Source of the DNA: Arenicola marina
Lineage: Eukaryota > Annelida > Polychaeta > Arenicolidae
Assembly: GCA_964019135.1 (NCBI GenBank)
Contig: OZ025258.1
Location: forward strand, 4,545,961-4,609,960
Reading direction: 5' to 3'
Length of the DNA stretch: 64,000 nucleotides
Shown: piece by piece, positions 3,042-54,420 of the stretch
Layout: the number at the start of each line of letters is the position of its first letter
Position numbering within the stretch: position 1 is the first letter of the stretch
Position numbers and translations under genes: made by a program
The notes under the pieces: generated by a model
Databases searched by the model: none
What the model was told of the DNA's origin: nothing
Seen by the model: the letters and a program-made list of their open reading frames with translations, nothing else

Positions 3042-3224
3042 ATAAAAGAGGAAAGACTGAAGAAGTTATTTTCAGAGAAGGGTTTGATCACAGACTGCGC
3101 ACTGAAATTTACAAAGGAAGGCAAGTTCCGCAAGTTTGCCTTCATCGGGTACAGGACAGATGCAGATGCCCAGGCTGCAGTGAAACACTATGACAACACC
3201 TTCATCGACACCACACGAATTAAG
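3042..3224 (+). CDS. RBM19: RBM19 exon with RRM1
   Basis: 61 codons, phase 0 at both ends. Starts IKEERLKKLFSEKGL and contains the RNP1-like strand RKFAFIGY and the end of the RRM (TTRIK). The acceptor follows a T-rich tract (ag at 3040-3041) and the donor is AAG/gtatat. The RNP2 strand of this RRM must be in the missing first exon. Confidence 0.92.
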
Positions 3225-6200
3225 GTATATCATTGAACTTGCTGTTATAATAATGTTTTTTCACTAGAATATAAAAATGGGTATAAAATACTGCGGTCGA
3301 GTACTGGTAGCTAATACATACAAATATTTCTGTCATTACATGATTGGAGTTACATTATTGAAGCTACAAGAGTGGTGTGAATGTAATATGACCTACCAGT
3401 ATCTTCCTACCTTTCGTATATTTCTCAATCTGAAGACAATGTTGTAGGTTGAGCTAGCAACAGACCTTGGTGATCAGTACAAGGCAAGAGCATGGAGTAA
3501 ATATTCCAAGGGCAGTTCTGCTTATGAAAAGCAAGCTGAAAAAGAGCTGCCAGACCTTGCAGCAGAAAAAGCAGGCAAAGGAGTTGCCACGAAGGATAAA
3601 AGTGGTGAAAAAGTAGACAAACTGCTGGGAGAGGTATGTGTAATAAAGGAGCATGTTAATTAACATGGAACATTGCAACATGGAACATTGCAACATTGAA
3701 TTGCTTGCACAGCAATAGTCTTTGTTTAACACTTAATGTCACTGTAAGAAATAGGTTATAAGCATGTAAGTCTCAGTTAAAGCTCCCCTGGTTAAAGACC
3801 TGTTATGGTTAATGAATTTGTATTTTGCTGATGATATGCAATTAAAAAATAAAAAGATAATTTTTTTTTAATATTAACATTTTGTTGCAGTTAACTGAGG
3901 ATCCAGAGTTTCAAGAGTTTCTAGAGGTCCACAAAAGCAGAAGCAACAAAGCTGTGTGGAGCAACGACACCTTGCCCACATCAGACGGCACTTTAAAAGG
4001 TCAAGGTCGAAGTACGAGGAAGTCAGATGAGAGTTCTGATGATGAAGACATGCTGCAAGATGAGGAGGGCGAGGGGGAAGATGATAGGGACAGCACGCCT
4101 CAAGGTCAGCGCTTGAATTTAGTCTAAGATGAAGAATTTGTTTTCCTAGCAACAGGATGATTTAAGCCACCTACCCATGTGTAGATGAATGGTGTATGCC
4201 ACAGATGTAATGCACGAGAGGAAGAATGATGACATAGATGTAATATACGAGAGAAAGAATGATGCCACAGATGTAATGCACGAGAGGAAGAATGATGACA
4301 CAGATGTAATATACAAGAGAAAGAATGATGCCACAGATGTAATGTACAAGAGGAAGAATGATGACATAGATGTAATGTACGTGAGGAAGAATTATGCTAC
4401 ATATGTAATGTACGAGAGGAAGAATGATGCCACAGATGTATTTTACTAGAGGAAGAGTGATGCCATAGATGTAACCAGGATTAATACTAATAGAAGTCTG
4501 TAACCACTGCAATATCTTGCGATTGACTGTTACCATACTTGCTGTACTTATATCGTGTTTTCCGGTCTTGATGCCAATTGTGGCCATATTCAATCTTGCC
4601 CTTAGCGGTGTATTGGGTTTAAATGTTGTGTAACAGAGACGAAGGTGACACTCCAGAAGAAGGACACTTCTGGGAAGAAACTCTCAGACTTGGAGGTAAG
4701 ACTGACGGATTACGATCATGACATACGTCCGTAAACTGCCGCTTTTGATGTCTGCTGGTCACCAACTAATTAACGTCTCATTCTATATTTACATTTATTT
4801 ATACAAGGCAGAAAGGTTGCGCCAAGCAAACGGCGAAACTTAAATTATATGTATCCTGTTACACCGACATATTTTTGAAACCTTGTACATGTATGTACTA
4901 TGGGCCTGATGGCCTCCTATTCGAAATAAAGTTACTTACTTAATATAAAGCTATTTATATCTCTTTCGGTATGTGAATCAACAAAAAGTTGCTTTCGATT
5001 TATATATGCCTCTATGAGAAGCATTTAACCAGACGATATGTGTTGCATAGCAACTGTTAATTACTGTTTGTCGTTGGTTTGTAATGCACTACAACACACT
5101 TGTACTTACTCCAGGAGACTATGAATCCAAAGTTAAGAAAGCGATATTGCATGAATTTGCCTTGATATAAAGTTTGCTTGTTGACAGTATCTGAAGTCGA
5201 AGGTAACAAAGACTCTCCTGGATGACTCGGACTCAGAGTCCTCCGAAGGCGATCTTTCTGGATCTGAGTCCTCGGCGGCCGGTGACGGAAGTGATAGCGA
5301 TGACGGAAGTGATAGCGATGACGGAAGTGATAACGATGACGGAAGTGGTGACGATGACGGAAGTGATGAAGATGACGACGACAAAATGGCGAAAATCTCC
5401 AAGGTCAGTTGTGGATGTAATTAAACGAATTTTTTTGTTTTTCTTGGTAACTTTTGTATAAATGGTTATTAGTACTTTAACTACTTGTTAGATGATAACT
5501 TCTCTATAAAGTTATAAAAAAACTGTTTAAGTGATAATTAGAAAACTAATGTACGGAGATTTTTCGCTGTAAATGATATTATTGATGACCCGTAGTAGCA
5601 GTCCTAAAGTCTTCATGTCCAGACTGCAATCGCTCGTGGACTTCATTAACTGCCCATATGTGTTCAATGTGGACGTTTGGTCCTTTGAATTAATGAGAGG
5701 AATAGTTGGTTTGGGACTTGGTTTTGCAGACAAGTGCTCCATGTAGATTTATGATCAAGATGAGAGGGCTGCCACCGAACTCTAAGGAGGTAAGGCGATT
5801 CCTGACATGCGTCTGTCCTGTGTGGACTGCTTCAGATCCTGTATCTTATACTGTGTCATATACTGTATCATGTGCTGTATCCATACTAAGCTTTATGGGA
5901 GTTCGTCCAAGCCAAGATAACTATGTGCAACGCGTAAAGTGTATCATATGCTGTATCTTCACATATATATTTCATACCGGTATATTGCAACGATACCAAT
6001 GTGTTTTGGCCCCGAAACCCAAGATAAATTGTAAAAATGCTCAAAATATTTGCATTTCTTTACTAAGAAACTTTAAATTATGCTCATGTGCAAGCCAATA
6101 TGCCAATAATTTGAAAATTCATGACATGTTTTTTGGACGTTTCAGAGCCAAGTTCACGAATTCTTTAAACCTGTGAAAGTCAAATCAGTGAAGATACCTA

Positions 6201-9200
6201 GGAACGCCAAGGGAAACAACACGTTCAGTAAGAATTAGGCTTACCTGCCACATAACGTAGTAATATTCGTCAGGACTTAACAACACATTCAGTAAGAATT
6301 AGGCTTACCTGCCACCTAACGTAGTAATATTTGTCAGGACTTAACAACTCGTGTCTTTATATGGCGCTCGACCTACTCACTTAGTTGCCTGGTTATTTGT
6401 TACGGTATTATGACTAAATGGTGCATTATATTTACTATGTCTATTCGCCGCTTGCCGATAAGCTAGTGATACAGGTTGAGGAAGAATGGTTTCTGAAGAA
6501 CTTTTTATAGCAAACGATCACACAAAGTAAGGTTGAACCAATGTCGCCTCATTTTACGTCAGTTAGAATGCTTTGAATGGAAAGATATTAGTGTGAGAAC
6601 GCGAAAGGCCTTGTTTAACTGAACTTGTCGTGCTAGATGTTCATGGTTTCTGTCTGCCTCTCTAAGGTAAAGCGGCGGTGGAATTCAGCACTGAACAGCA
6701 ATGGGAATTAGCCATGCGAAAAAACAAGAACTTTATCGGTGAGTAGACATGTTAGCCATCTACAGTGTCACAAATAGTTTATGTTGGTACATGTTTTCTC
6801 CAATAAAAATGCGGCGCAGATACCAGTGTTTATCATAATATTAATGTGTTAATACAGCACGGAGTATGTGGCAGAGAGGCAGTCAGTGACGGTGCGTCAA
6901 AAAGGAAATGGGGAGTGCACTCTCCCATTGTCAGGTTCTGGCGTTATCCCACGGTTTACCATTGAAACAGTTACTAAACATTTGCCGTGAAGACTAGTCG
7001 GGTATGCAATCGAAAGAGGAACACAGATACATCCTTATTCGTATAAGAAAAACAAACAATGGAGCTTATTATGCTCAGTACTTACTGGTAAGCCGAGATA
7101 ATAAAGCATAAAGGGACGGTCTTCGAAACTGCTGCAATAAATATATGGAATGGTGTGACAAGGCATCGATGTATTTGGGCTAAGGAGGAGACCCCCCCCC
7201 CTCCCCCCTCTTTCCGAGAAGAGTGTCCTCAGACTAGAACTACTCGGTCTCAGAAGCGTCGTCTACCTGTGTCGGGCTCCCTTGTAACGTCGGGGGCCGG
7301 TGTGGTCCCCAACGAGAGTCCAACTCCCACTTCGAGTCAATCACTCTAAAGGGGTGATCCCACTAGCCAGATGCTGGTAGGAATGATTTGACTCATTGCT
7401 ACATATGTGTATGTACCATGGCTGTAGGCCGGGCTATACCGCGAATAAAGATTTGTTCTGTGACAACTAAATGTATGTCGGTACCATTGTCTTGTTGATC
7501 CCACCAGGTTCCAAGAAGATCTTCTTGCACAAGTTTAAGGAGGACGTGGAAGGCGAGAAGGTGGAGACGGCAGGACCAGGGGTCAGGTCAAGGCCATGGG
7601 AAGCCAAGGTCAGACACCTATCTCTGATTGACTGAACTATCATATTCATTGTAAAGTGTGAGGATCTAAGATCTAGCGGAACTTTGATTTCGTATGGCGT
7701 TTGACATACAATGTTGTCGCTGAGCTTAACTCTTAGACATAAAAGATTCGTGCAGACAGCAGACAATATACCGATACGTACGTATGCGCCCCTATTCAAT
7801 ACAGATAATTGTTGTATTATTCACATGTGTTGTCTCCGCGTATTTGACTAAAACCTCCTGAGTTAACAGCTGGTATCTGTTCTTACATGATTGTTGCCAG
7901 CTCTAGCTCACTGTAAACACGTTTGGTTGTCAGGGCGACCAGATGGAAGGCGAAGAGGAGACGATAGCCGAGGTAGGTCACGTGACTGGGTCGTGGTGTC
8001 CGTGCTGCCTCACCACTAGGGATGGATGCAATGGTGTTTTAGACCGCCTTTGTGAACACATGGGCTAAACTGTCGCCACACAGAAATGTAATCTAGTGTA
8101 ACTGTATACTCATGTGTCGGTCTTAATGGTACCTTACCAGTCGGAGAAAATCCTATCTGCTTGATATACGGGAACTGGCTAACTGTTGGTTTGTTGCCAT
8201 GTGTATGTACTATGAAGGTACAGCCCAACAGTGGGTGTCAGTGTGGGGGGTCACCCCTTGGTTCTAGAAGGTAGTGCGTTCAGCCATTGTCCAGTGTGCT
8301 CTGCTAGGCCAGCCCAAGCGGCCGGGGCGTGGTCGAGTGTGCTCTGCTAGGCCAGCCCAAGCGGCCGGGGCGTGGTCGAGTGTGCTCTGCTAGGCCAGCC
8401 CAAGCGGCCGGGGCGTGGTCGAGTGTGCTCTGCTAGGCCAGCCCAAGCGGCCGGGGCGTGGTCGAGTGTGCTCTGCTAGGCCAGCCCAAGCGGCCGGGGC
8501 GTGGTCGAGTGTGCTCTGCTAGGCCAGCCCAAGCGGCCGGGGCGTGGTCGAGTGTGCTCTGCTAGGCCAGCCCAAGCGGCCGGGGCGTGGTCGAGTGTGC
8601 TCTGCTAGGCCAGCCCAAGCGGCCGGGACGTGGTCGAGTGTGCTCTGCTAGGCCAGCCCAAGCGGCCGGGACGTGGTCGAGTGTGCTCTGCTAGGCCAGC
8701 CCAAGCGGCCGGGGCGTGGTCGAGTGTGCTCTGCTAGGCCAGCCCAAGCGGCCGGGGCGTGGTCGAGTGTGCTCTGCTAGGCCAGCCCAAGCGGCCGGGG
8801 CGTGGTCGAGTGTGCTCTGCTAGGCCAGCCCAAGCGGCCGGGGCGTGGTCGAGTGTGCTCTGCTAGGCCAGCCCAAGCGGCCGGGACGTGGTCGAGTGTG
8901 CTCTGCTAGGCCAGCCCAAGCGGCCGGGGCGTGGTCGAGTGTGCTCTGCTAGGCCAGCCCAAGCGGCCGGGGCGTGGTCGAGTGTGCTCTGCTAGGCCAG
9001 CCCAAGCGGCCGGGGCGTGGTCGAGTGTGCTCTGCTAGGCCAGCCCAAGCGGCCGGGGCGTGGTCGAGTGTGCTCTGCTAGGCCAGCCCAAGCGGCCGGT
9101 GTGAGGTGTGCTCTGCTAGGCCAGCCCAAGCGGCCGGGGCCTGGTGCGAATCCCACCTGTGTAGGTTAAATATCCCATGTCTTTCTTCGCAAAGAGTTAC

Positions 9201-12200
9201 TCCTCGAGACATGGCTCCTTTCTACCGTGACCCTTCTCATTCTCGCGATATGATCTTCACATGTTAAAGCGTCCTACCTATATGGTGAATGTTGGGGTCG
9301 TTGTGTCTTCAGTCTGGGCGGCTGTACGTCCGTAACCTGGCCTACTGCTGCAAGGAGGAGGACCTGGAGAGTCTGTTCAGCGAGTACGGTAAGCTCTCCA
9401 TGGTTTAGCCGGCTATGGAGCTTAGTCGGCTAAAATCGCCCATCGTGTACATGGCCACTTTAGTCGACTAAGCCCCGTAGTCGGCTAAACTGCGTTCATG
9501 AAATCCGCCACTGGTACCAGCCTATTCAGCGAGTACGCTAAGCACCGCACTGTGGGTGTGTCCCTCGATGGGTGTCTCCCTCAGTGGGCGTGTCCCTCAG
9601 TGAGTGTGTTTCTCAGTGGGTGTCATTTTGTGGGCGTGTCCCTCACTGGGCGTGTCACTCACTGGGCGTGTCACTCAGTTGGCGTGTCCCTCAGTGGGTG
9701 TGTCCCTCAGTGGGCGTGTCCCTCCGTGGATGTGTCCCTCAGTGGGCGTGTCCCTCAGTGGGTGGGTCCCTCAGTGGATGTGTCCCTCAGTGGGTGTGCC
9801 CCTCAGTGGGTGTGCCCCTCAGTGGGCGTGTCCCCCAGTGGGTGTGCCCCTCAGTGGGCGTGTCCCTCAGTGGGCGTGTCTCAGTTTGCGTGTCTCTAAA
9901 TGGGCGTGTCCCTCAGTGGGCGTGTCTCAGTTGGCGTGTCTCTAAATGGGCGTGTCCCTCAGTGAGCGTGTATCTCAGTGGGCGTGTCCCTCAGTGGGTG
10001 TGTCATTTTGTGGGCGTGTCCCTCATTGGGTGTCTCCCTCAATGGGCGTGTCCCTCAGTGGGCGTGTCTCTCTGTGGGCATGTCCCTCAGTGGGTTTGTC
10101 CATCAGTGGGTGGGTCCCTCAGTGGGTGTGCCCCTCAGTTGGCGTGTCCCTCAGTGGGCGTGTCACTCAGTGGGTGTCTCCCTAGTGGGCGTGTCCCTCA
10201 GTGGGTGTCTCCCTCAGTGGGTGTGTCCATCAGTAGGTGTGTCCATCAGTGGGTATGTCCATCAGTGGGTGTCTCCCTAGTGGGCGTGTTCCTCAGTGGG
10301 TGTCTCCCTCAGTGGGTGTCTCCCTCAGTGGGTGTGTCCATCAGTAGGTGTGTCCATCAGTAGGTGTGTCCATCAGTAGGTGTGTCCATCAGTGGGTGTG
10401 TCCATCAGTGGGTGTCTCTCTAGTAGGCGTGTCCCTCAGTGGGTGTCTCCCTCAGTGGGTGTGTCCAGCAGTGGGTGTGTCCATCAGTGGGTGTCTCCCT
10501 AGTGGGCGTGTCCCTCAGTGGGTGTCTCCCTCAGTGGGTGTCTCCCTCAGTGGGTGTCTCCCTCAGTGGGTGTGTCCATCAGTGGGTGTGTCCATCAGTA
10601 GGTGTGTCCCTCAGTGGGTGTGTCCATCAGTAGGTGTGTCCATCAGTAGGTGTGTCCATCAGTGGGTGTGTCCATCAGTGGGTGTCTCCCTCAGTGGGTG
10701 TGTCCATCAGTGCGTGTGTCCCTCAGTGGGTGTGTCTATCAGTGGGTGTGTCCATCAGTAGGTGTGTCCCTCAGTGGGTGTCTCCCTCAGTGGGTGTCTC
10801 CCTCAGTGGGTGTGTCCATCAGTGGGTGTGTCCATCAGTGGGTGTCTCCCTAGTGGGCGTGTCCCTCAGTGGGTGTCTCCCTCAGTCGGCGTGTCCCTCA
10901 GTGGGTGTGTCCATCAGTGGGTGTGTCCATCAGTAGGTGTGTCCATCAGTGGGTGTCTCCCTCAGTTGGTGTCTCCCTCAGTGGGTGTCTCCCTAGTGGG
11001 CGTGTCCCTCAGTGGGTGTCTCCCTCAGTCGGCGTGTCCCTCAGTGGGTGTGTCCATCAGTAGGTGTGTCCATCAGTGGGTGTGTCCATCAGTGGGTGTC
11101 TCCCTAGTGGGCGTGTCCCTCAGTGGGTGTCTCCCTCAGTGGGTGTCTCCCTCAGTGGGTGTGTCCATCAGTGGGTGTGTCCATCAGTGGGTGTCTCCCT
11201 AGTGGGCGTGTCCCTCAGTGGGTGTCTCCCTCAGTGGGTGTCTCCCTCAGTGGGTGTGTCCATCAGTGGGTGTGTCCATCAGTGGGTGTCTCCCTAGTGG
11301 TCGTGTCCCTCAGTGGGTATCTCCCTAGTGGGCGTGGTCTGTCAGTGGGTGTGTCCCTCTGTAGGTGTGGCCTGTCAGTGGGAGTGTCCCTCTGTAGGTG
11401 TGAAGTACTGTATGGTGTGTTTTATAGCGTACCTCGCCCCCCACAGGCCCACTGACAGAGGTCCACCTGCCCATCGACAGCCTCACCAAGAAGGTGTGTC
11501 TCAGTGGGCGTGTCTGTAGGTGTGAAGTACTGTATGGTGTGTTTTATAGCGTACCTCGCCCCCCACAGGCCCACTGACAGAGGTCCACCTGCCCATCGAC
11601 AGCCTCACCAAGAAGGTGAAGGGATTCGCGTTCATCACCTTCATGATCCCGGAGAACGCGGTGAAGGCCTTCACAAAACTGGACGGCAAGAGTTTTCAGG
11701 TGACACTCGCGTCAGTATAACTTAAACAGCTCGGCGTTCCTACCGCGAAGTGTTGTACAATGTACAAAAGAATGATTTTTATTTATTTTATTTTATTGCG
11801 CAAGAAGGTTGCAAATACTGTATATTCAAATATAAAACACGGACGAAATAAAACCACTCTGTATTCGTGACATTAACATCTGGTACATTATTTTAAATAG
11901 GTAAAAGACCTTGATATATCGCTTGTCATGATATACAACAGAGGTTTAGTTGTGTCAACTTAGACATTCTACTCCCAATGTTTCCGATCAGGTGTGAAGA
12001 AAGTGTAAATATACTTCCTCTCATTTGACGTTACATTTTTGTGCGGTAACCACATTTTGTAAATCAAAAAACCGAAAGTTGTTGATTGAAATATTTGATA
12101 TTTATTCTACTTACATGGCAGATGAAAGGCACTCTGAACTGCTGTAGCGATGGTATCAGATGGTATCAATTTTATTCCTTGTTGTTGCAGGGACGTATGT

Positions 12201-15200
12201 TGCACATTCTCCCCGGCAAAGCCAAGAAAGACGAGTCTCTGGAGATTAAGGGTCAGTTTCCATAGCTTGGCTTGAATAATCCTAAACCACCGAGCGAAGA
12301 AATTGTCCAATACCAGAGCGTGTCCACATCGTTCCCATGCTTGGCGCGGAAAGGACAAACATGTTTCTGTATCGTTTAGTTTTGCATAAAGAAGTGATCG
12401 AATAATGGGTTTCATTCCCTATTTAATTAAATTGTTTATTATCATTGTGAAGGAAATAGTTTCCCACGAGAATTAGTGCATAATACAGTGCTTGAAAAGC
12501 TGGCACAGGTAGGACCACTTACAGATATATTTATGTGTGTTAACAATAAAAATGACGTGGTATTAACCATTCGGCTATGAGCGGACCAACCTTTCCCAAA
12601 GATAAATCATCAAACTGAAAGTATTTATCACTGTTAGATTATTTTTGTATCCATCTAGTGATTGCTACAGTTGACTCTGTAGCCTTGGTAACTGGTTGTG
12701 GAATGTCCAGAGTTTGGCTCTGTAGCCTTGGTAACTGGTTGTGGAATGGCCAGGGTTTGGTTCTGTAGCCTTGGTAACTGGTTGTGGAATGGCCAGTGTT
12801 TGGCTCTGTAGCCTTGGTAACTCGCCGAGGAATGGCCAGTGTTTGGCTCTGTAGCCTTGGTAACTGGTTGTGGAATCGCCAGGGTTTGGCTCTGTAGCCT
12901 TGGTAACTCGCCGAGGAATGGCCAGTGTTTGGCTCTGTAGCCTTGGTAACTGGTTGTGGAATGTCCAGAGTTTGGCTCTGTAGCCTTGGTAACTGGTTGT
13001 GGAATGGCCAGTGTTTGGCTCTGTAACCTTGGTAACTGGTTGTGGAATGGCCAGGGTTTGGCTCTGTAGCCTTGGTAACTGGTTGTGGAATGGCCAGGGT
13101 TTGGTTCTGTAGCCTTGGTAACTGGTTGTGGAATGGCCAGGGTTTGGCTCTGTAGCCTTGGTAACTGGTTGTGGAATGGCCAGGGTTTGGTTCTGTAGCC
13201 TTGGTAACTGGTTGTGGAATGGCCAGGGTTTGGTTCTGTAGCCTTGGTAACTGGTTGTGGAATGGCCAGGGTTTGGCTCTGTAGCCTTGGTAACTGGTTG
13301 TGGAATGGCCAGGGTTTGGTTCTGTAGCCTTGGTAACTGGTTGTGGAATGGCCAGGGTTTGGCTCTGTAGCCTTGGTAACTGGTTGTGGAATGGCCAGGG
13401 TTTGGCTCTGTAGCCTTGGTAACTGGTTGTGGAATGGCCAGGGTTTGGCTCTGTAGCCTTGGTAACTGGTTGTGGAATGGCCAGGGTTTGGCTCTGTAGC
13501 CTTGGTAACTGGTTGTGAAATGGCCAGGGTTTGGCTCTGTAGCCTTGGTAACTGGTTGTGGAATGGCCAGGGTTTGGCTCTGTAGCCTTGGTAACTGGTT
13601 GTTGAATGGCCAGGGTTTGGCTCTGTAGCCTTGGTAACTGGTTGTGGAATGGCCAGGGTTTGGCTCTGTAGCCTTGGTAACTGGTTGAGGAATGGCCAGG
13701 GTTTGGCTCTGTAGCCTTGGTGACTGGTTGTGGAATGGCCAGGGTTTGGCTCTGTAGCCTTGGTAAATGGTTGTTGAATGGCCAGGGTTTGGCTCTGTAG
13801 CCTTGGTAACTGGTTGTGGAATGTCCAGGGTTTGGCTCTGTAGCCTTGGTAACTGGTTGAGGAATGGCCAGGGTTTGGCTCTGTAGCCTTGGTGACTGGT
13901 TGTGGAATGGCCAGGGTTTGGCTCTGTAGCCTTGGTAACTGGTTGAGGAATGGCCAGGGTTTGGCTCTGTAGCCTTGGTAACTGGTTGTGGAATGGCCAG
14001 GGTTTGGCTCTGTAGCCTTGGTAACTGGTTGTGGAATGGCCAGGGTTTGGCTCTGTAGCCTTGGTAACTGGTTGAGGAATGGCCAGTGTTTGGCTCTGTA
14101 GCCTTGGTAACTGGTTGTGGAATGGCCAGGGTTTGGCTCTGTAGCCTTGGTAACTGGTTGTGGAATGGCCAGCGTTTGGCTCTGTAGCCTTGGTAACTGG
14201 TTGTGGAATGGCCAGTGTTTGGCTCTGTAGCCTTGGTAACTGGTTGTGGAATGGCCAGTGTTTGGCTCTGTAGCCTTGGTAACTAGTTGTTGAATGGCCA
14301 GGGTATCGGGGATTGTTCACGACCTGATGTGTTTCTTTCCAGATGGCATGACGTACAAACAGAAGCGAGACATCAAGCAGAAGCTGACGGCCGGCAGGTA
14401 AGAGGTCCTGCAGAGTGAGACCTGAGGCCATACGTTCTGAACGGCCGGGCCGAATATCTCGCCCGCGAGTAGGACATTAGCATGGAGCTGGGCACAATAT
14501 TCGGCTCCGGCCGTTTGGCACGTACGGCCCCAGATCTGTGCTAGGAGCCTGGTCACCCCCTCTGGCCACTGACTGCTGCCGCCGTCCAAGCTATGAGGTA
14601 TGTGGTCACACCAGGGGAGTCACGCTAGGAGACAAGACTGGTGGTCGAGGCGGGAGACCATGTTAAAGTTGCTACTTCAACAATAAGTAGACATTAGGCC
14701 GGCACGGCCGCAATTAGGTTGCCGCCATTATGTTTCGGAAAGGGGTGTTCAGAGGATGTCGCATTCAAACGCCGCCAGTCACCCTGGAGCCCGGCTAGCT
14801 CAGTCGGTAAAACATCGGACGTTTGCTCGTAGCGTTTATGCGTTCAATTCTCGATGGAGGGGATTTTGTTTCGGTGTTTACTGATGGCAACAGGCACTAT
14901 TCCTCCTGAAACATGTGGTCCTCCCTACGGTCGTCACTTTGTAACGAAAAATACTCGATCGTAATCTTTGATTCTAAGACTACTCAGAAGCTTAGTTGAG
15001 GCGGCCCCGCCGGGTCGCTGGTTTATATTTGGTACACATAATCACTTTAATATTTGATCCCTGCGGAGCTGCGATGTGCATACCACCAGTAATATCAGAT
15101 CCAACTCTACCATCTCTGTTCTTACGATCATTTATTTAAATAGTGCCACAATCTATAATTCAGGAAGATTTCTCGTCGATAAAGAGTTCTATTGGGTTTT

Positions 15201-31839: not shown

Positions 31840-31924
31840 ATGAATGAACACAGAGTACAGTAGAGGTAGAGTCTATGCCTTGACGCAGGGTGGATACTGA
31901 AGCAGAGCCACTGACACAAGGAGT

Positions 31925-32370: not shown

Positions 32371-32377
32371 GCCCTGG

Positions 32378-32470
32378 TCAGCAGTGTTCGTACGTCAGCA
32401 GTGTTCGTACGTCAGCATTGTTCGTACGTCAGCATCGTTCGTACGCCAGCATCGTTCGTACGCCAGCAGT
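32378..32470. repeat. 17-bp tandem repeat, about 5-6 copies
   Basis: Unit GTTCGTACGTCAGCAGT, next to the foldback element. Confidence 0.85.
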
Positions 32471-32520
32471 ACTACCAGCGTAACCACTTGACGTGCCAAA
32501 CTAAATACACAACAGCCAAT

Positions 32521-44400: not shown

Positions 44401-47400
44401 TGGGCCGAGGGGGGTCCTCACATACTGACGACAGACACAGTCATTAGGACAGACAGCCATGTAACCAGACATGTCCAACTGCAGGGTCGAGCCCTCACTG
44501 GGCCGAGGGGGGTCCTCACATACTGACGACAGACACAGTCATTAGGACAGACAGCCATGTAACCAGACATGTCCAACTGCAGGGTCGAGCCCTCACTGGG
44601 CCGAGGGGGGTCCTCACATACTGACGACAGACACAGTCATTAAGACAGACAGCCATGTAACCAGACATGTCCAACTGCAGAGTCGAGCCCTCACTGGGCC
44701 GAGGGGGGTCCTCACATACTGACGACAGACACAATCATTAGAACAGACAGCCATGTAACCAGACATGTCCAACTGCAGGGTCGAGCCCTCACTGGGCCGA
44801 GGGGGGTCCTCACATACTGACGACAGACACAGTCATTAGGACAGACAGCCATGTAACCAGACATGTCGAACTGCAGGGTCGAGCCCTCACTGGGCCGAGG
44901 GGGGTCCTCACATACTGACGACAGACACAGTCATTAGGACAGACAGCCATGTAACCAGACATGTCGAACTGCAGGGTCGAGCCCTCACTGGGCCGAGGGG
45001 GGTCCTCACATACTGACGACAGACACAGTCATTAGGACAGACAGCCATGTAACCAGACATGTCCAACTGCAGGGACGAGCCCACACTGGGCCGAGGGGGG
45101 TCCTCACATACTGACAGACACAATCATTAGGACAGACAGCCATGTAACCAGACATGTCCAACTGCAGGGTCGAGCCCTCACTGGGCCGAGGGGGGTCCTC
45201 ACATACTGACGACAGACACAATCATTAGGACAGACAGCAATGTAACCAGACATGTCCAACTGCAGGGTCGAGCCCTCACTGGGCCGAGGGGGGTCCTCAC
45301 ATACTGACGACAGACACAATCATTAGAACAGACAGCCATGTAACCAGACATGTCCAACTGCAGGGTCGAGCCCTCACTGGGCCGAGGGGGGTCCTCACAT
45401 ACTGACGACAGACACAGTCATTAGGACAGACAGCCATGTAACCAGACATGTCGAACTGCAGGGTCGAGCCCTCACTGGGCCGAGGGGGGTCCTCACATAC
45501 TGACGACAGACACAGTCATTAGGACAGACAGCCATGTAACCAGACATGTCGAACTGCAGGGTCGAGCCCTCACTGGGCCGAGGGGGGTCCTCACATACTG
45601 ACGACAGACACAATCATTAGGACAGACAGCCATGTAACCAGACATGTCCAACTGCAGGGTCGAGCCCTCACTGGGCCGAGGGGGGTCCTCACATACTGAC
45701 GACAGACACAATCATTAGGACAGACAGCCATGTAACCAGACATGTCCAACTGCAGGGTCGAGCCCTCACTGGGCCGAGGGAGGTCCTCACATACTGACGA
45801 CAGACACAGTCATTAGGACAGACAGCCATGTAACCAGACATGTCCAACTGCAGGGTCGAGCCCTCACTGGGCCGAGGGGGGTCCTCACATACTGACGACA
45901 GACACAATCATTAGGACAGACAGCCATGTAACCAGACATGTCCAACTGCAGGGACGAGCCCACACTGGGCCGTGGGGGGTCCTCACATACTGACAGACAC
46001 AATCATTAGGACAGACAGCCATGTAACCAGACATGTCCAACTGCAGGGTCGAGCCCTCACTGGGCCGAGGGGGGTCCTCACATACTGACAGACACAATCA
46101 TTAGGACAGACAGCCATGTAACCAGACATGTCCAACTGCAGGGTCGAGCCCTCACTGGGCCGAGGGGGGTCCTCACATACTGACAGACACAATCATTAGG
46201 ACAGACAGCCATGTAACCAGACATGTCCAACTGCAGGGACGAGCCCACACTGGGCCGTGGGGGGTCCTCACATACTGACAGACACAATCATTAGGACAGA
46301 CAGCCATGTAACCAGACATGTCCAACTGCAGGGTCGAGCCCTCACTGGGCCGAGGGGGGTCCTCACATACTGACGACAGACACAATCATTAGGACAGACA
46401 GCCATGTAACCAGACATGTCCAACTGCAGGGACGAGCCCACACTGGGCCGAGGGGGGTCCTCACATACTGACGACAGACACAATCATTAGGACAGACAGC
46501 CATGTAACCAGACATGTCCAACTGCAGGGTCGAGCCCTCACTGGGCCGAGGGGGGTCCTCACATACTGACAGACACAATCATTAGGACAGACAGCCATGT
46601 AACCAGACATGTCGAACTGCAGGGTCGAGCCCTCACTGGGCCGAGGGGGGTCCTCACATACTGACGACAGACACAATCATTAGGACAGACAGCCATGTAA
46701 CCAGACATGTCCAACTGCAGGGTCGAGCCCTCACTGGGCCGAGGGGGGTCCTCACATACTGACGACAGACACAATCATTAGGACAGACAGCCATGTAACC
46801 AGACATGTCCAACTGCAGGGACGAGCCCACACTGGGCCGAGGGGGGTCCTCACATACTGACAGACACAATCATTAGGACAGACAGCCATGTAACCAGACA
46901 TGTCCAACTGCAGGGACGAGCCCACACTGGGCCGAGGGGGGTCCTCACATACTGACGACAGACACAATCATTAGGACAGACAGCCATGTAACCAGACATG
47001 TCCAACTGCAGGGTCGAGCCCTCACTGGGCCGAGGGGGGTCCTCACATACTGACAGACACAATCATTAGGACAGACAGCCATGTAACCAGACATGTCGAA
47101 CTGCAGGGTCGAGCCCTCACTGGGCCGAGGGGGGTCCTCACATACTGACGACAGACACAATCATTAGGACAGACAGCCATGTAACCAGACATGTCCAACT
47201 GCAGGGACGAGCCCACACTGGGCCGAGGGGGGTCCTCACATACTGACAGACACAATCATTAGGACAGACAGCCATGTAACCAGACATGTCCAACTGCAGG
47301 GTCGAGCCCTCACTGGGCCGAGGGAGGTCCTCACATACTGACGACAGACACAATCATTAGGACAGACAGCCATGTAACCAGACATGTCCAACTGCAGGGT

Positions 47401-50400
47401 CGAGCCCTCACTGGGCCGAGGGGGGTCCTCACATACTGACGACAGACACAATCATTAGGACAGACAGCCATGTAACCAGACATGTCCAACTGCAGGGACG
47501 AGCCCACACTGGGCCGAGGGGGGTCCTCACATACTGACAGACACAATCATTAGGACAGACAGCCATGTAACCAGACATGTCCAACTGCAGGGACGAGCCC
47601 ACACTGGGCCGAGGGGGGTCCTCACATACTGACGACAGACACAATCATTAGGACAGACAGCCATGTAACCAGACATGTCCAACTGCAGGGTCGAGCCCTC
47701 ACTGGGCCGAGGGGGGTCCTCACATACTGACAGACACAATCATTAGGACAGACAGCCATGTAACCAGACATGTCCAACTGCAGGGTCGAGCCCTCACTGG
47801 GCCGAGGGGGGTCCTCACATACTGACGACAGACACAATCATTAGGACAGACAGCCATGTAACCAGACATGTCCAACTGCAGGGACGAGCCCACACTGGGC
47901 CGAGGGGGGTCCTCACATACTGACAGACACAATCATTAGGACAGACAGCCATGTAACCAGACATGTCCAACTGCAGGGTCGAGCCCTCACTGGGCCGAGG
48001 GGGGTCCTCACATACTGACGACAGACACAATCATTAGGACAGACAGCCATGTAACCAGACATGTCCAACTGCAGGGACGAGCCCACACTGGGCCGAGGGG
48101 GGTCCTCACATACTGACGACAGACACAATCATTAGGACAGACAGCCATGTAACCAGACATGTCCAACTGCAGGGACGAGCCCACACTGGGCCGAGGGGGG
48201 TCCTCACATACTGACAGACACAATCATTAGGACAGACAGCCATGTAACCAGACATGTCCAACTGCAGGGTCGAGCCCTCACTGGGCCGAGGGAGGTCCTC
48301 ACATACTGACGACAGACACAATCATTAGGACAGACAGCCATGTAACCAGACATGTCCAACTGCAGGGACGAGCCTACACTGGGCCGAGGGGGGTCCTCAC
48401 ATACTGACGACAGACACAATCATTAGGACAGCCAGCCATGTAACCAGACATGTCCAACTGCAGGGACGAGCCCACACTGGGCCGAGGGGGGTCCTCACAT
48501 ACTGACGACAGACACAATCATTAGGACAGCCAGCCATGTAACCAGACATGTCCAACTGCAGGGACGAGCCCACACTGGGCCGAGGGGGGTCCTCACATAC
48601 TGACGACAGACACAATCATTAGGACAGCCAGCCATGTAAACAGACATGTCCAACTGCAGGGTGGGGGGGGGACCCACACCATTCATCTCGTTTCGTAAAC
48701 CCTCTGACCCTATGGACTGAATGCCAATAGCTTGGCTGACTACTCTACTGGGGTAACCACCCCAATGGTCTGGTGGTTAGCGCGCTCGGCGTTGTCGACT
48801 GAGCTCGGCCAGGCCAGTCGTCGTGCCAGGAGCTCCAGGGGTTCGCGCCCCTACTACACATTTATTATTCGTGCAGAATAAAGATCTCATTTCTTAAAAA
48901 TACAATTCATTTATTTTGCAGAGCAAAGATTGCAGGCAATAAAGTTACACTTGTTGTCGGTTGTATGTACCAAGGCCTTTGAACCTTCAGAGATCCAATA
49001 CACATCATATATATACTTAACCACTACAGATATAAACTCCAAATATACAGAAACGTATATTTGCTATCATGGTCTTAAAGTCTTAATGTTCTTGCCACGT
49101 AACGTGTATAATATTATTGTAATTGTGAACCAATTGCCAGATGTTAATAGTCAGTTATATGTTGTTGTTCTCAAGAGTATGTAAATCATATAGTTATAAG
49201 GATACATCATATGGTTATAAGGCCGACAGCCTGATTGTCCCACTGACCTTTGTGTGGCACTGGGCAGGGGTAGGTTGTGACTTCAGCCTCAGTCATGGCT
49301 AGAACGACAAGGCAGACGCCCCAGCATGAGATAGTCGGCACGCCACACACCAGGCAAGGGGTGGTTACATTGTAAAATTACTGGTATCATGCAAAATGTA
49401 AGATTGATCACAATCACGAGTACATGTAATGTCTCAGATTTAACATGGCTGCCATCCTGTCAAGCTGAATACCTTCACATACTTCTTGCAAGCGCATTTG
49501 TGTTGTGACAGGTTTGGGGTTGGGTGTGTGTGCGGGGGAAAGGGGGTGGGGGCGGGGGAGGGGGTAAGGTAACGTTAACTTGCGACTGGCAACTTTTAAA
49601 CACTTTCTATCTGTAATGTGTCAAGATAAAATGTAAACCAGTCAAACATCCACTTTTTGCTCTGTGGCCCTGGATGGCGTTGGATGGAGAAACCTGGAAA
49701 TTAATACTCTGAAGAGGCGTAATGTATCAGGAGGGGAAATAAGTGTCTATTGGCTACATTATATATGTGACATATGTTGGACTAGAGCCAAGGACTCACC
49801 TGGCAGTGGCGAGCAGGGCTGGGTAAGGAAGAACCAGTTGTAATGTCTCTCACACTGGTTCCTGGAGCGGGTCTGTAGCTGACTTGCAACATCAGACCTT
49901 TGATACGAAAAGAATGATAAGCTAAAAAATAATAGGCTGAGACAGTGACACCGGAAACGAAAGATTACTGTTATGACCAGCAGGAGCAGGACGCCATTTA
50001 CCAGAAGTCGTGAACACCAAATGATTTTGCTTGTTCATTGTCTACATTGGCCTGTCAGTCTCCTAATATTCATACTGTCTTGTCATAAAAATGATATCAA
50101 GCATTATGAATTTTACAGGACAGGAGAGCCAGTCAACTCACCAGTTTCCAATGCCACAGTCAGCTATAGCTTCCAACAGCTGTAACTCCTCAGCAGCTGT
50201 CCAACCTCCTTTAAACAGCTGGAAATCATTCTTCTGCAAGTTTATATGTAGTACCACATCATTTAGTGTCCAGTCAGATGTTCAACACATAAGGATATAC
50301 TTCTATATACAATGTAGCTGCATGCTGGCCAATGTAGAGCTCCAAGCCAAAAACGTTATTGTTAGTGACATCAATTGATAAACTGTTATTTTCAATTGTA

Positions 50401-50844
50401 ATATAAATCTTATGCCATTGTTCAATTGTAATTGTTAACTACTTTGAAATTAAGTCCTTCCATAAAATGATTTGAGGCAGCTAGGGATCAATGTATACTG
50501 ACAAAGGAATAACCTTCAGTGACTATACAAGACAGGTATATTCTGCTTAATATATAGCAAACAGATCCAAATTTAGTAGTAGCATGTCAATTGCACAAAT
50601 TATAACAACACTATTAAATATTAATAATATTAATCTACAATAACAAATTGTTATATTTTCCATTATTGGTACTTACAACCACTTCATACTTGTGATCACT
50701 GTGGTGTTGGCGAAGTTGCAATCCACGTGCAAAGCACCTTAAACAAATGTTGACTTTTTGGGGCCGACACTCAGCACACTGGATGAAGGGTTCTGTGAGG
50801 GGTGACCCACACCCTGGGCAGAGCCTCGTCACACGCCCAGACAT
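34159..50844 (-). CDS. TADA2A: TADA2A (transcriptional adapter ADA2), 12 coding exons
   Basis: ADA2 subunit of GCN5/PCAF histone acetyltransferase complexes, nuclear. Coding exons on the minus strand, high to low: 50844-50677, 50233-50142, 49897-49800, 49298-49248, 44035-43864, 43508-43446, 43184-43141, 42814-42701, 38429-38269, 37181-37094, 35019-34946, 34359-34159. The sum is 1326 nt (441 aa plus stop); human TADA2A is 443 aa. The start Met (50844) lies two bases inside an exon with a good acceptor, so a 5' UTR exon is expected upstream. Phases agree at every junction. Two ends are less sure: exon 5 (43864 chosen because 43874 breaks the frame) and exon 10 (37094 or 37100). Five of the twelve exons have their splice-site edge copied into a minisatellite, and the stop codon lies in another. 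Confidence 0.93.
34373..34670. repeat. 17-bp minisatellite in TADA2A intron 11, about 17 copies
   Basis: Unit TACAGTGATACAAGCCT/GTCT, within 15 bp of the exon 12 acceptor. No exon sequence in the unit. Confidence 0.93.
34671..34945 (-). other. Rest of TADA2A intron 11, no feature seen
   Basis: AT-rich single-copy sequence. I see no gene or repeat beyond a short duplication TTATATTCAGTATCATCGCC at 34670-34710. Confidence 0.4.
35040..37110 (-). repeat. 38-bp array of TADA2A exon 10 end plus donor, about 54 copies
   Basis: On the minus strand the exon ends CACAGTCCATGCCCAGTG followed by TGTGTACGTATAGTG. The unit reads ACAGTCCATGCCCAGTGTGT, GTACGTATAG, TGTACATC. Each therefore has the exon end and the candidate donors GTGTGT and GTACGT. 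The array fills almost all of intron 10 up to the exon 11 acceptor. Confidence 0.95.
37185..37362. repeat. 30-bp tandem repeat before TADA2A exon 10, 6 copies
   Basis: Plus-strand unit AAAACATGTGTACACGTCAT then ACTCGGCCTC. It lies between the 40-bp array and the exon 10 acceptor. Open frames arise because 30 is a multiple of 3. Confidence 0.92.
37363..38300 (-). repeat. 40-bp array of TADA2A exon 9 end plus donor, about 23 copies
   Basis: On the minus strand the exon ends CAGTGATGTCCTGGCCTTAA then TACAG/gtgacg. The unit is the same 29 nt of exon end followed by GTGACGTCATG. Only the copy at 38269 is joined to unique exon sequence and gives the right phase. Confidence 0.96.
38830..38999 (-). 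mobile_element. tRNA-derived SINE
   Basis: Minus strand: GACCGATAGCTTAGTGGGTG (A-box-like), GGTGGTTCGCGCCCAG (B-box-like), then GATCCCATGTCCTTCGCAAA and GGTCATGGCTCCGC. It matches the element at 52411. Direct repeats CAAGTAAA at about 38822 and 39000 look like target site duplications. Confidence 0.75.
39072..42740 (-). repeat. 48-bp array of TADA2A exon 8 end plus donor, about 76 copies
   Basis: Minus-strand unit: GCTGGGAGAAACTGATGGAA, AGTCTGCACT, GTGAGTACATTGTGGAAG. The first 30 nt are the exact end of exon 8 and the rest starts with a strong donor (GTGAGTA). Two unit classes (ATTGTG/CTTGTG, GAGAAA/GAGACA) are interleaved. About nine units of 46 bp lacking two bases (GTGCACTTTCC) occur in two clusters, about 40.0-40.3 and 40.9-41.3 kb. 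Very long open frames on both strands are created by this array. Confidence 0.97.
42701..43508 (-). CDS. TADA2A: TADA2A exons 6-8: central helical region
   Basis: Exons 43508-43446 (DEGVVVDVYENVLRERQRRK), 43184-43141 (ILRDHGLINMSKHI) and 42814-42701 (YDKTMSAITMETLKVFRRLL then GWEKLMESLH). They align with human VVDIYHSRLKERQRRK, IIRDHGLINL and the MRRFARIVGPVEHDKFIESH segment. Exons 7 and 8 both end in a donor that is tandemly duplicated downstream. Confidence 0.9.
43081..43160 (-). repeat. Two-copy duplication of TADA2A exon 7 end plus donor
   Basis: Minus strand: ATGAGCAAACACATTG/gtaag occurs at the exon edge (43141) and again 34 bp downstream (43107), separated by CGCACTGTGATC. Only the first copy is preceded by the rest of the exon. 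Confidence 0.93.
43205..43345 (+). mobile_element. Copy of the element seen at 7160-7470
   Basis: Shares GTAACGTCGGGGGCCGG, followed by AGGAATAAAGGTTAC. Lies in TADA2A intron 6. Confidence 0.4.
43580..43775. repeat. AT-rich tandem repeat in TADA2A intron 5
   Basis: Imperfect units of about 26 bp, AATATAAATTCAATAATATA then AACTAA. Confidence 0.75.
43864..44035 (-). CDS. TADA2A: TADA2A exon 5: ADA2-specific region
   Basis: Encodes EDPPRPSEGSTLQFDMSGYM and then ARGDFMVEHDNYAEMNLRDI, matching the DDPPRP...DMAGYMPARADF segment of human TADA2A. Its acceptor (GTCAG/TATGTG) and first about 70 nt are the master copy of the 98-bp array that extends upstream. The donor at 43864 (AAA/gtgtct) is weak but is the only one that keeps phase with the next exon. 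Confidence 0.85.
43965..48662 (-). repeat. 98/95-bp array of TADA2A exon 5 acceptor plus exon start, about 48 copies
   Basis: Minus-strand unit: TGTCTGTCGTCAG/TATGTG acceptor, then exon start GAGGACCCCCCTCGGCCCAG to GTTACATGGCTG, then CTGTCCTAATGATTG. The last copy (44035) runs into unique exon 5. Two classes exist: 98 bp (TCGTCAG) and 95 bp (TGTCAG), and GGCTCGACCC against GGCTCGTCCC. A variant making AATGTAACC recurs about 980 bp apart (44250, 45230), and a seven-unit order recurs with a period of about 677 bp (46654 and 47331). Confidence 0.97.
48745..48890 (+). mobile_element. tRNA-like SINE
   Basis: AATGGTCTGGTGGTTAGCGC (A-box-like), CAGGGGTTCGCGCCCCTAC (B-box-like), tail TTCGTGCAGAATAAAGATCT. 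In TADA2A intron 4. Confidence 0.6.
48900..49247 (-). other. TADA2A intron 4 remainder, no feature seen
   Basis: AT-rich single-copy sequence. No gene or repeat that I can support. Confidence 0.4.
49248..50233 (-). CDS. TADA2A: TADA2A exons 2-4: SANT/Myb domain and linker
   Basis: Exons 50233-50142, 49897-49800 and 49298-49248. The SANT signature is visible as GGWTAAEELQLLEAIADCG, then IGNW, DVASQLQ and RNQCERHYNWFFL. The exon junction splits the GNW Trp codon (TG/G), as phase requires. The third exon encodes MTEAEVTTYPCPVPHK. Confidence 0.88.
49505..49572 (+). other. G-rich tract with quadruplex potential
   Basis: GGTTTGGGGTTGGG, then GCGGGGGAAAGGGGGTGGGG and GCGGGGGAGGGGG. Several runs of four or more G with short loops, on the non-template strand of TADA2A intron 3. 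Confidence 0.55.
50677..50844 (-). CDS. TADA2A: TADA2A exon 1 (coding): ZZ zinc finger
   Basis: 56 residues starting MSGRVTRLC. Zinc ligands appear as CxxC pairs at residues 9/12, 23/26 and 34/37, with His at 47/48 and 51, the ZZ-type pattern of ADA2. The start was chosen as the first Met in the exon; it aligns with the short N-terminus of the family. Donor GTT/gtaagt. Confidence 0.92.
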
Positions 50845-50846
50845 CT

Positions 50847-51847: not shown

Positions 51848-54420
51848 ATGGTGAAAACAATCCACGTGGAGGGCTTTGACGCCTGCATGAAGTCCATAGA
51901 TGAAGAAAAGGGCAAAACCATATACGTACTTTTCAGCGGTAGCGTGACAGAGGACGGCAAAAGTTGGTGTCCAGATTGTGTCTCAGGTACCCGACCAAGC
52001 ACGTCTCACACCACTAAATCTCAAATTTGGGGATCCCAGCGGTTTCGCCAGACGTCATAACGGACACATATAAGTTTATAGTGTAACAGTTACAAGACCA
52101 TCCATGATGCATTACGCCTTTTACTTCATATTATATATCATTTTCATTAACAGGGTATAAATTGTGGTTTATTTGATGCATAAATGGTATAAACGTCACG
52201 AGCTTGATAACATTATGCTTCCTTAGCCTACGTGTTAGATGTTTGCCACGGTTTTCAGCTGATCCAGTGATAAAGGATTGTCTCAAAGCCGCGGCTGAAG
52301 ACGCTGTGTACATTTATTGCGGAGTTGGAGGCAGAGATTTGTAAGTAACTTACTAAGCTTACTGATAAGGAACCAGTTAAATTATTATAGCGGTTTCAGC
52401 AATATAGTCGGGGGCTGGCTCGATAGCTCAGTGGGCTAGAGCGCTCGCATTGGCGGCACATGGGTCGGTGGTTCGAGCCCCGCTGTGCCCATGTCTGTGT
52501 GGTCGCAGGTTAAAGATCCCATGTCCTTCTTCGCACAGAGTACGGGGTTACCCCAGGGACATGGCTTCCCTCTCTCTCCCTTCTCCCATTGACGCGATAT
52601 GACCAAAAGTGGTTAAAGCCCCCTGAATATACAACCAATCAGCAATATGGTCCAATTCCAGTGTCGATTTTTCAAAATTTCCAGGGTCGATCGAATGTGG
52701 AATTTTCACGACGTTCCGTGTCGCTTTTTGGCTAAATTCAGTGTCGTTTTTTTAATGCCACCATCTGTGTCGATGTCCCTTTTTCAGATCCTCAGTGTCT
52801 GAATTTGGTGGTCAATGTCGAATGTCAATTTTTCTAATATTCTTGTGTCGCGTGTCGTTATTTACCCCTCCCAGACACCCACTAGATGGAAACACAATTC
52901 ATCAGTTAACTACGGAATGGCTCACTTAAAGTGACGAGGGTCGTGAAGGGACAGGAATTCCTGCTTCACGCACGCGGTTATCTGCAGTGGGGAGGGGGGA
53001 ATGATGTACACGTCATAAGGAGTGAGGGGTAAACCAGGTCGTTCTCCCACGTTAAGGCGAAACATTGTTTCAAAATAGCTCACGTATGAGTTACGCCTCA
53101 GTCATCATTTACTGTAATGATCCGTGGTTCTATGGAAGATGACCGGGATGACCGGTCGACCAATGAGACTGGAAATGTAGTAAGAAATGTACCTGTATGA
53201 TACGCATTTCATTGATACATGTCTATTTCCGATTCCTCCTCTGGAAGGCCAGACATTGATACATGTCTATTTCCTATTCCTCGGCTGGAAGGCCAGACAT
53301 TGATACATGTCTATTTCTGATTCCTCCTCTGGAACGACCAGACATTGATACATGTCTATTTCCGATTCCTCCTCTGGAAGGCCAGACATTGATACATGTC
53401 TATTTCCGATTCCTCCTCTGGAAGGCCAGACATTGATACATGTCTATTTCTGATTCCTCCTCTGGAACGACCAGACATTGATACATGTTCATTTCCTATT
53501 CCTCGGCTGGAAGGCCAGACATTGATACATGTCTATTTCCGATTCCTCCTCTGGAACGACCAGACATTGATACATGTTTATTTCCTATTCCTCGGCTGGA
53601 ACGACCAGACATTGATACATGTTTATTTCCTATTCCTCGGCTGGAAGGCCAGACATTGATACATGTTTATTTCTTATTCACCAGCTGGAAGGACCAGACG
53701 AATGTGTTTCGCACCAACAGTCAAACCAAGCTCAAGTGTGTTCCCACTCTGCTCAAGTGGGGTAGCGTAAGTTACCGCTGATACCCTGACCAGACACATG
53801 ACCCCAATGGTTCACACGGGGAGGGGGGGGGGGGGGGGCAAGGGGTTATTTTCGTTCGTCGGGAATGGGATTTATAATTAACCGTGAACTGGAAATGAGG
53901 AAAATAAGAACTGGGAATGTGTCGTTAGCCCGCCGCCGTGATCAAGGATTTTCATTAATCGTGAACGGGGAATTTTCATATTAAACAACCGTGAATCGGG
54001 AAATCGTCAATTTAGTATCATGTATCCGCACTTCCATTGTATGCCGGGAATTCTTGTTTTAATTCATCGTGATCGGGTAATAAAGAAATTGATTCGTCGT
54101 GATATGGAAACATGACCCCGCCCCCACTTGTCCCTCCCCCCTTTCACATGGAGGCGATTTTGTACGAATTGTAGCTCTGAATAAATAGTTTTGTTTAATA
54201 CAATATATATTTATTTTATGGGGTTAACGTTAGATATTGACCAGATCGGAGATCTTCGCTAATCGATTGATAAAGAAGCATACATGTACAGAGCGTCTTT
54301 GCCTGGTGGTCCATAGGTAATAATGTAAACATGCGCTCCAATCTCTTTCAGCCGCAGAGATTGGAAGAGGAGCAGTGTTCACACTCCGGCCTCGTGCAGA
54401 TGATGTTTGAAGAAGATTGA
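51848..54420 (+). CDS. TXNDC17: TXNDC17 (thioredoxin-like TRP14), 4 exons
   Basis: Cytosolic 14-kDa thioredoxin-related oxidoreductase, in vertebrates reduced by thioredoxin reductase. Exons 51848-51986, 52259-52340, 53685-53766 and 54352-54420, phases 0-1, 1-2, 2-0 and 0-stop. Total 372 nt, 123 aa, the same length as human. The redox motif WCPDC (Cys41 and Cys44) follows the strand GKTIYVLFSGS. Later family blocks are ADPVIKDCLKAA, FWKDQTNVFR, LKCVPTLLKWG with the cis-Pro, and PQRLEEEQCSHSGLVQMMFE to the stop. The first in-frame ATG was chosen. The exon 3 acceptor lies in a tandem array; intron 2 also holds a SINE. Confidence 0.95.
52406..52638 (+). mobile_element. Full-length tRNA-derived SINE
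   Basis: Head with CTCGATAGCTCAGTGGGCTA (A box) and GGTGGTTCGAGCCCCGC (B box), then the body GTCGCAGGTTAAAGATCCCA and CCAGGGACATGGCTTCCCTC. Flanked by the direct repeat TCAGCAATAT (52396 and 52639), a target site duplication. Best copy of the SINE family seen in this window. In TXNDC17 intron 2. Confidence 0.85.
52660..53214 (+). other. TXNDC17 intron 2 remainder
   Basis: 52660-52870 is full of dispersed GTGTCG and GTCGAT words (for example AGTGTCGATTTTTC, CGTGTCGCTTTTTGG), perhaps a decayed tandem repeat. Nothing recognisable in the rest. Confidence 0.4.
53215..53695 (+). repeat. 43-bp array of TXNDC17 exon 3 acceptor plus exon start, about 11 copies
   Basis: Unit: TTGATACATGTCTATTTCCG, ATTCCTCCTCTGGAAGGCCA, GAC. 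The true junction is TTCTTATTCACCAG/CTGGAAGGACCAGAC. The unit holds the polypyrimidine stretch and the first 14 nt of the exon. In the spare copies the AG is changed (CCTCTGG, CGGCTGG), so only the last copy is a working acceptor. Confidence 0.93.
53819..53840 (+). repeat. G homopolymer-rich tract
   Basis: GGGGA followed by 17 G. Prone to length error. Otherwise 53767-54351 (TXNDC17 intron 3) shows only short CGTGAA/CGGGAA words. Confidence 0.6.

Follow-up and report, generated by a model that had tools for sequence, protein, structure and literature searches.

Minisatellites whose repeat unit runs across an exon-intron junction were described in the lancelet Branchiostoma under the name of mirages, in Adh3, in the globin genes BflGb6 and BflGb9, and in TnC and PGBD5 (PMC3087553, PMC3902484). 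In the excerpts of those two papers considered here, the units measure 10-72 bp in Adh3 and ∼150-160 bp in the globins, either exon edge can be affected, regular splicing is reportedly not interfered with, and copy-number polymorphism between haplotypes as well as somatic instability is reported, the two haplotypes of BflGb6 carrying 6 and 3 units. Here, we analyze a stretch of 64,000 nucleotides from the annelid Arenicola marina (G000:C11:4545961-4609960, in an assembly of 867 Mb and 762 contigs), referred to below as the window, in which the genes RBM19, TADA2A, and TXNDC17 carry tandem arrays across their exon edges. An earlier interpretation made from the letters alone (the sequence-only reading) had pointed to a precedent at the amphioxus Adh locus, and the precedent is real, being the Branchiostoma mirages as those excerpts describe them. 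The arrays in the window are a real and striking annelid case of the same type of structure, at a much larger scale.

Tandem arrays over splice junctions in three annelid genes

Arrays were detected with Tandem Repeats Finder, whose 72 rows over the window were merged into 39 arrays covering 48% of it, and exons were modeled with a purpose-written spliced protein-to-DNA aligner, using human proteins as guides. Spliced alignment gave 25 exons for RBM19 (window positions 3042..30577, forward strand), whose first coding exon was not found and some of whose edges were set by hand, 12 exons for TADA2A (34165..50820, reverse strand), whose 5' end is incomplete in the model, and 4 exons for TXNDC17 (51860..54420, forward strand). 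After refinement the exon numbers are those of the sequence-only reading, which had placed ten junctions of these three genes inside tandem arrays; the repeat calls and the spliced alignment put all ten of them there.

The clearest case is exon 17 of RBM19, where the exon end CTGGCCTATTCCAAG and the intron start GTAAG are followed by 4.6 kb of the 20-bp unit CTGGCCTACTCCAAGGTAAG. The array over this donor (18598..23196, forward strand; exon end 18612) holds 231.6 copies of the unit, which reads CTGGCCTACTCCAAG/GTAAG across the junction, and GT is present in 222 of 227 copies. Two other RBM19 donors, also on the forward strand, are covered by shorter arrays, one of 2.1 copies of a 64-bp unit at exon 7 (6215..6348; exon end 6227; GT in 2/2 copies) and one of 5.6 copies of a 21-bp unit at exon 22 (28119..28236; exon end 28136; GT in 5/5). 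At the acceptor of RBM19 exon 12 (exon start 11569), 1.9 copies of a 122-bp unit (11391..11618, forward strand; AG in 2/2) are 100% identical, so that they are either very recent or an effect of the assembly; they come directly after a 16-bp array.

Five junctions are affected in TADA2A, all read on the reverse strand. The acceptor and exon start of exon 5 (44035) lie under 48.3 copies of a 98-bp unit (43967..48662; AG in 48/48), and the donors of four later exons under 2.0 copies of a 34-bp unit (exon 7, 43090..43157; exon end 43141; GT in 2/2), 77 copies of a 48-bp unit (exon 8, 39057..42734; exon end 42701; GT in 77/77), 23.5 copies of a 40-bp unit (exon 9, 37360..38298; exon end 38269, placed by hand; GT in 22/23), and 53.7 copies of a 38-bp unit (exon 10, 35057..37115; exon ∼37181-37094, placed by eye; GT in 51/52 copies found). 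Intron 9 consists of the 40-bp array and of 5.8 copies of a 30-bp unit (37186..37359, reverse strand) that stop a few bases before the exon 10 acceptor, with almost no other sequence. In TXNDC17, an array of 11 copies of a 44-bp unit (53210..53699, forward strand) reaches 15 bp into exon 3 (exon start 53685), and its unit repeats exon-edge sequence but without the AG, which is absent from all decoys (0/9).

With that last array as the departure, the unit comprises exon edge and splice site, as had been proposed for every junction, at 9/10 window junctions, and intron sequence follows in the same unit, which is the arrangement of Branchiostoma mirages in the published excerpts. Periods had been put at 13 to 122 bp; they do differ between junctions, but the range is 20-122 bp, since the array based on 13 bp does not span a junction. 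The units are unrelated, no blastn cross-hits being found among those of 38 window arrays, in line with the independent births that had been suggested. Insertion of a dispersed repeat or of a transposon at exon edges was considered and rejected on the same absence of cross-hits. The used splice site is, as stated earlier, the copy joined to unique exon, and that copy is the one the protein needs; any working gene demands this, and it is hence no extra evidence.

What is observed, then, is an abundance of unrelated minisatellites, some of which cross exon edges, with the frame open through the exon-joined copy. The frame is kept in this way, as in mirages, at the 8/10 window junctions and the junctions of a comparison set of CCT/HSPD1 genes that were aligned, and at TADA2A exons 9-10 by hand placement. 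Donor and acceptor edges are both hit (10 donor and 4 acceptor arrays here), again as in the excerpts on Branchiostoma. The host differs, being an annelid and not a cephalochordate, although the taxon has been recorded for mirages and does not define them, and so does the scale, since the 6 and 3 units of BflGb6 compare with up to ∼230 copies and 4.7 kb here. Ordinary intronic minisatellites share with these arrays their short, unrelated, homogenized head-to-tail units; the junction arrays, unlike them, include coding exon sequence and a working splice site.

An amphioxus origin of the animal is ruled out in favor of an annelid by RBM19 matches and tree, COX1, and mitochondrial gene order. Among named matches of RBM19, a nemertean, mussels, and a scallop come first and Branchiostoma is far lower at 46% (among the best 120 of 824), and in a maximum-likelihood tree the window RBM19 falls in a four-sequence group with Capitella (support 99/94). 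TXNDC17 finds molluscs, crustaceans, and one brachiopod among its named matches, and no match of any kind is above 65% identity. COX1 is 91% identical to that of Pilargis wolfi, and 9 of the first 11 named matches belong to families that we take to be Phyllodocida. The mitochondrial contig (C762) carries nad3, nad2, cox1, cox2, atp8, and cox3 on one strand (names read from translations), which is presumably the annelid ground pattern. Taken together, the tree, COX1, and gene order point to errant annelids, in the neighborhood of Phyllodocida. Mirages are thus no lancelet oddity, being present in a distant phylum rich in minisatellites, where a single intron can hold hundreds of intact decoy donors. 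Junction minisatellites in annelids did not appear in open-licence PMC titles and abstract starts, among the matches listed.

Genome-wide arrays and decoy splice sites

The background was sampled in 19 regions of 10 kb (190 kb) at round coordinates, which are not random draws. They contain 98 arrays making up 34.7% of the sequence; arrays are present in 18/19 regions, one region being without any and two consisting entirely of array. One of these two (G000:C3:10000001-10010000) is a 68-bp repeat throughout, which on its reverse strand resembles the end of an exon, ...ATACACAAG/GTAAGC; judged by this reading of its letters, it may be a junction array of the donor type with at least 147 copies. 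The other (G000:C4:10000001-10010000) is a 31-bp repeat of ∼323 copies. Seven CCT/HSPD1 genes served as the comparison set, located by PF00118 matches only, with repeats not considered in the choice. Together with the window genes they give ten genes with 103 modeled introns, 40 of which contain at least one array, and 42.6% of intron bases lie in arrays. The suggestion that duplications are tolerated only at splice sites does not survive these figures (arrays are 43% of intron DNA and 35% of the sampled genome).

Against this background, we consider the junction-spanning minisatellites to be by-catch: minisatellites would grow genome-wide in a largely neutral way, more densely toward intron 5' ends and without aim at the junction, a reading to which we give a probability of about 0.6. 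On this account a founding tandem duplication would straddle an exon edge, and the gene would survive because the copy still joined to unique exon retains a complete splice site. The extra copies would leave with the intron on splicing, arrays would persist wherever splicing still works, and the donor adjoining the exon would be committed first, so that later donors would be harmless. Donor decoys come after the real donor and would be ignored, so GT stays intact and arrays of hundreds of copies can form. Acceptor decoys come before the real site and would be met first, so that acceptor arrays should be rarer or lack AG; the pattern is seen in a small number of arrays, and the cause is one that we infer.

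The decoy copies agree in part with this account. In the ten donor arrays, GT is kept in 222/227, 77/77, 22/23, 51/52, 37/40, 11/11, 5/5, 4/4, 2/2, and 2/2 copies, the used one included. Two of the four acceptor arrays keep AG (TADA2A exon 5 and RBM19 exon 12), and two lack it in every decoy, namely that of TXNDC17 and that of CCT6, where among 132 copies of a 25-bp unit AT stands in 110, AC in 21, and AG solely in the used copy. This asymmetry between donor and acceptor decoys is a lead and not a result. The signal on the acceptor side is longer than that of the donor, including a branch point and a pyrimidine tract, and this greater length alone could keep arrays off acceptors, in line with an edge coverage of 4% there vs 10% at donors. 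The best reading is that minisatellite growth is tolerated across donors and constrained at acceptors, and the arrays offer a ready test of the choice of splice sites, in which the first donor wins and upstream acceptor decoys are dangerous. The asymmetry may be new, as it is not mentioned for Branchiostoma mirages in the excerpts considered (PMC3087553, PMC3902484).

The near-complete retention of decoy GTs also bears on the idea of functional decoys, in which selection would maintain the repeated donors or acceptors for a role in regulating splicing or expression. Where the comparison was made, in nine spanning donor arrays, identity at the GT is equal to or slightly above that of the rest of the unit (0.96-1.00 vs 0.88-0.98). 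The differences are small, homogenization alone can keep GT, and minisatellites occur in 18/19 regions sampled irrespective of genes, which makes selection for decoys very improbable. A false expansion of repeats during assembly is hardly more credible, since long arrays contain many variant copies (mean identity to consensus about 0.95-0.99), the units are not the same from locus to locus, and arrays recur in 18/19 sampled regions; the perfect 122-bp copies at RBM19 exon 12 are what a mis-join could give, and the copy numbers of long arrays are those of the assembly.

Tandem duplication of exon sequence containing AG/GT (a proto-splice site) has been proposed as a source of introns, from excerpts on novel Drosophila introns (PMC2891723) and as a model in PMC3087553, and an array might accordingly be a new intron. 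Some introns are nearly all array, such as TADA2A intron 9, and downstream of TADA2A exon 10 the acceptor region resembles the unit, with 0/200 shuffles reaching its score, although this region adjoins the array end. At the other donor arrays (9/10), the downstream acceptor region is within the shuffle range (at least 9/200 reach the score). Both the Drosophila introns and the arrays here involve a short tandem duplication with a splice motif; as far as the excerpt shows, both intron edges derive from duplicated exon in Drosophila, while one edge is repeated in at least 9/10 donor arrays here. A single copied edge is as expected for a pre-existing intron, and an origin of these introns by duplication is improbable.

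Placement of arrays along introns

The 47 arrays of the ten genes include 10 that span donors and 4 that span acceptors, so both exon edges are affected, and the junction arrays outside the window are in CCT3, CCT6 (two), and HSPD1. Arrays are not limited to exon edges, since 17/27 intronic arrays in RBM19, TADA2A, and TXNDC17 are non-spanning. Among these, the array based on 13 bp starts 4 bases into the intron past the RBM19 exon 15 donor at 15342, which it abuts (15347..16960, forward strand), a 27-bp array ends ∼12 bp upstream of the RBM19 exon 21 acceptor at 27280 (26802..27268, forward strand), and a 17-bp array ends ∼19 bp short of the acceptor of TADA2A exon 12 at 34359 (34379..34665, reverse strand). 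Open frames of more than 500 aa cross the 13-bp-based array (window 15058-17015) and need not be genes.

To obtain the number of spanning arrays expected by chance, each array was shrunk to one unit, whose position was then drawn at random across introns and their edges. In the CCT/HSPD1 genes, 4/20 arrays span a junction vs 3.2 expected (P=0.39), which fits random seeding, and donor-spanning arrays alone number 3 vs 1.6 (P=0.20). Spanning acceptors show a pooled count of 4 vs 3.3 expected. For the pooled total of 14 spanning arrays, the expectation is 6.6 with basic periods and 7.6 with composite periods. An array in CCT3 that begins at the first intron base after exon 8 contains no exon bases and was not scored as spanning; it has GT in 42/56 copies. 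The density of junction arrays had been said to look exceptional; spanning arrays exceed random placement in the three window genes (10 vs 3.4) and show no clear excess in the CCT/HSPD1 set (4 vs 3.2).

Coverage by arrays in the ten genes shows no peak at the junction, and rises from exon into intron on both sides. From 0.10 at the donor edge it climbs to 0.20-0.21 (the highest values) at 60-80 bases into the intron and stands at 0.17 at 200 bases; on the acceptor side it is 0.04 at the edge, 0.12 at 60 bases upstream, and 0.19 at 200 bases upstream. Splice-like signals are not clearly enriched in the 72 repeat units of the 19 regions, where a donor score of at least 10 is reached by 2/72 units, where shuffles predict ∼0.6 and non-array windows 1.2; among window units the figure is 2/36 vs 0.3-0.5 expected.

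Several results weigh against largely neutral growth without aim. Spanning arrays in the three window genes exceed expectation (10/27 vs 3.4, P=0.0006, in a window picked for such arrays), as do donor-spanning arrays when pooled (10 vs 3.3, P=0.0009), and omission of the two longest loci (on C17 and C9, for size) from the nine multi-exon CCT/HSP60 loci found, seven of which were used, may bias the comparison set against array-rich genes. When non-spanning arrays of the ten genes were shuffled within their own introns and counted by intron fifths, 14/33 lay in the donor-end fifth vs 6.9 expected (P=0.0025), so a uniform null does not hold, and the cause may be linked to the donor. A GT identity at least equal to that of the rest of the unit is more than pure neutrality asks for, the acceptor array of TADA2A exon 5 retains AG in 48/48 copies, and at the level of arrays the contrast between GT kept in 10/10 donors and AG kept in 2/4 acceptors reaches only P=0.066.

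These observations raise the possibility that duplications arise more readily at 5' splice sites or immediately beyond them, for example through transcription- or splicing-coupled breakage or through slippage between AGGT-like words; we regard such a donor-biased birth as possible, though doubtful. The pooled donor excess stems mostly from the window, where 7 donor-spanning arrays compare with 1.7 expected, while the count in the CCT/HSPD1 genes is close to chance. The donor-end excess, in contrast, is seen in both gene sets (7 vs 3.4 in the window, 7 vs 3.5 in CCT/HSPD1, P about 0.03 each), with no excess in the acceptor-end fifth (8/33 vs 7.8); a cruder sign test gives 21/33 non-spanning arrays nearer the donor (P=0.16). 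The donor-end bias looks real, and a donor excess of 2-3-fold is possible. Coverage has its maximum ∼60 bases past the donor instead of at the junction, which counts against donor-biased birth.

Word counts over the whole genome point weakly in the same direction. A donor 9-mer occurs 47279 times singly vs 26180 for the reversed word, and 4456 times vs 1750 in runs of three in close succession, so that the tandem share is 9.4% vs 6.7%, a relative excess of only 1.4-fold. Tandem counts of the donor word differ between strands (1640 vs 2816), noise that comes from a few long arrays; in all these counts an array weighs in by its length, and the number of arrays does not enter. An acceptor-like 9-mer shows no such excess, in tandem (4468 vs 4591 for the control) or singly in a local estimate from non-array DNA (32 vs 35). 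Because only 2/103 modeled donors match the donor 9-mer, the test is weak either way. It replaces an 8-mer version (14983 vs 4592) that was inflated by an AAGGT pentamer satellite; this satellite, with its donor-like words, is found at G000:C1:1896393-1896575.

The proposal that duplications are seeded at splice sites therefore stands only in part. The absence of a coverage peak at the junction, the lack of a clear CCT/HSPD1 excess, and the small 9-mer excess leave it not demonstrated, and no targeting of the splice site as such is shown; what is observed is a bias toward the front portion of introns, which keeps a broader form of the proposal alive. In that form, which we put forward tentatively and think rather unlikely, intron 5' ends, donor included, would be preferred birthplaces of minisatellites, introns would be continually refilled from the upstream exon edge, and 3' splice sites would be protected, decoy acceptors needing to be disarmed. 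If this were true, the genome would offer a natural experiment in how a spliceosome chooses the first of hundreds of identical donors. By-catch of general minisatellite growth, the reading we prefer, likewise raises the question of why arrays crowd at the intron front.

Gene models and other features

Gene identities have support apart from the guide proteins. RBM19 retrieves orthologs with query coverage up to 99-100% (among the best 120 of 824 matches), the translated TADA2A and TXNDC17 proteins each carry Pfam domains, and TADA2A is further backed by matches to Ada2 structures. Eight of the ten window junctions were taken directly from the spliced alignment. In TADA2A, the donor of exon 9 had to be shifted by hand, while frame, splice signals, and phase guided a placement of exon 10 by eye that replaced two misaligned pieces; exon 10 is the least secure. 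Hand correction was also applied to several edges in RBM19 and TADA2A and to the last one in TXNDC17, and spurious micro-exons were removed before counting (three in RBM19, two in CCT5, one in CCT3, one in CCT8, and two in CCT6). The count tables carried exon starts of 7505 (for 7508) and 37182 (for 37181), and spanning calls are unaffected. Gene predictors may mis-call genes with junction-spanning arrays.

Two PF00118 loci in addition to the nine found (C5 at 36.7 Mb and C10 at 11.07 Mb) were outside the sample. At CCT exon matches, open frames reach 1049 aa. RRM matches of the same score occur across many chromosomes in open frames of 424, 462, and 519 aa, which are perhaps mobile-element proteins. 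Within RBM19 exon 5, an in-frame 18-bp coding repeat (window 5283-5377) encodes an acidic, SDDGSD-like run. On the reverse strand, translations of window positions 26388-26589 and 52439-52751 have a common motif like YSGGFNHCWSYR...SHVPG, which suggests, from the translated letters, two copies of a dispersed repeat.

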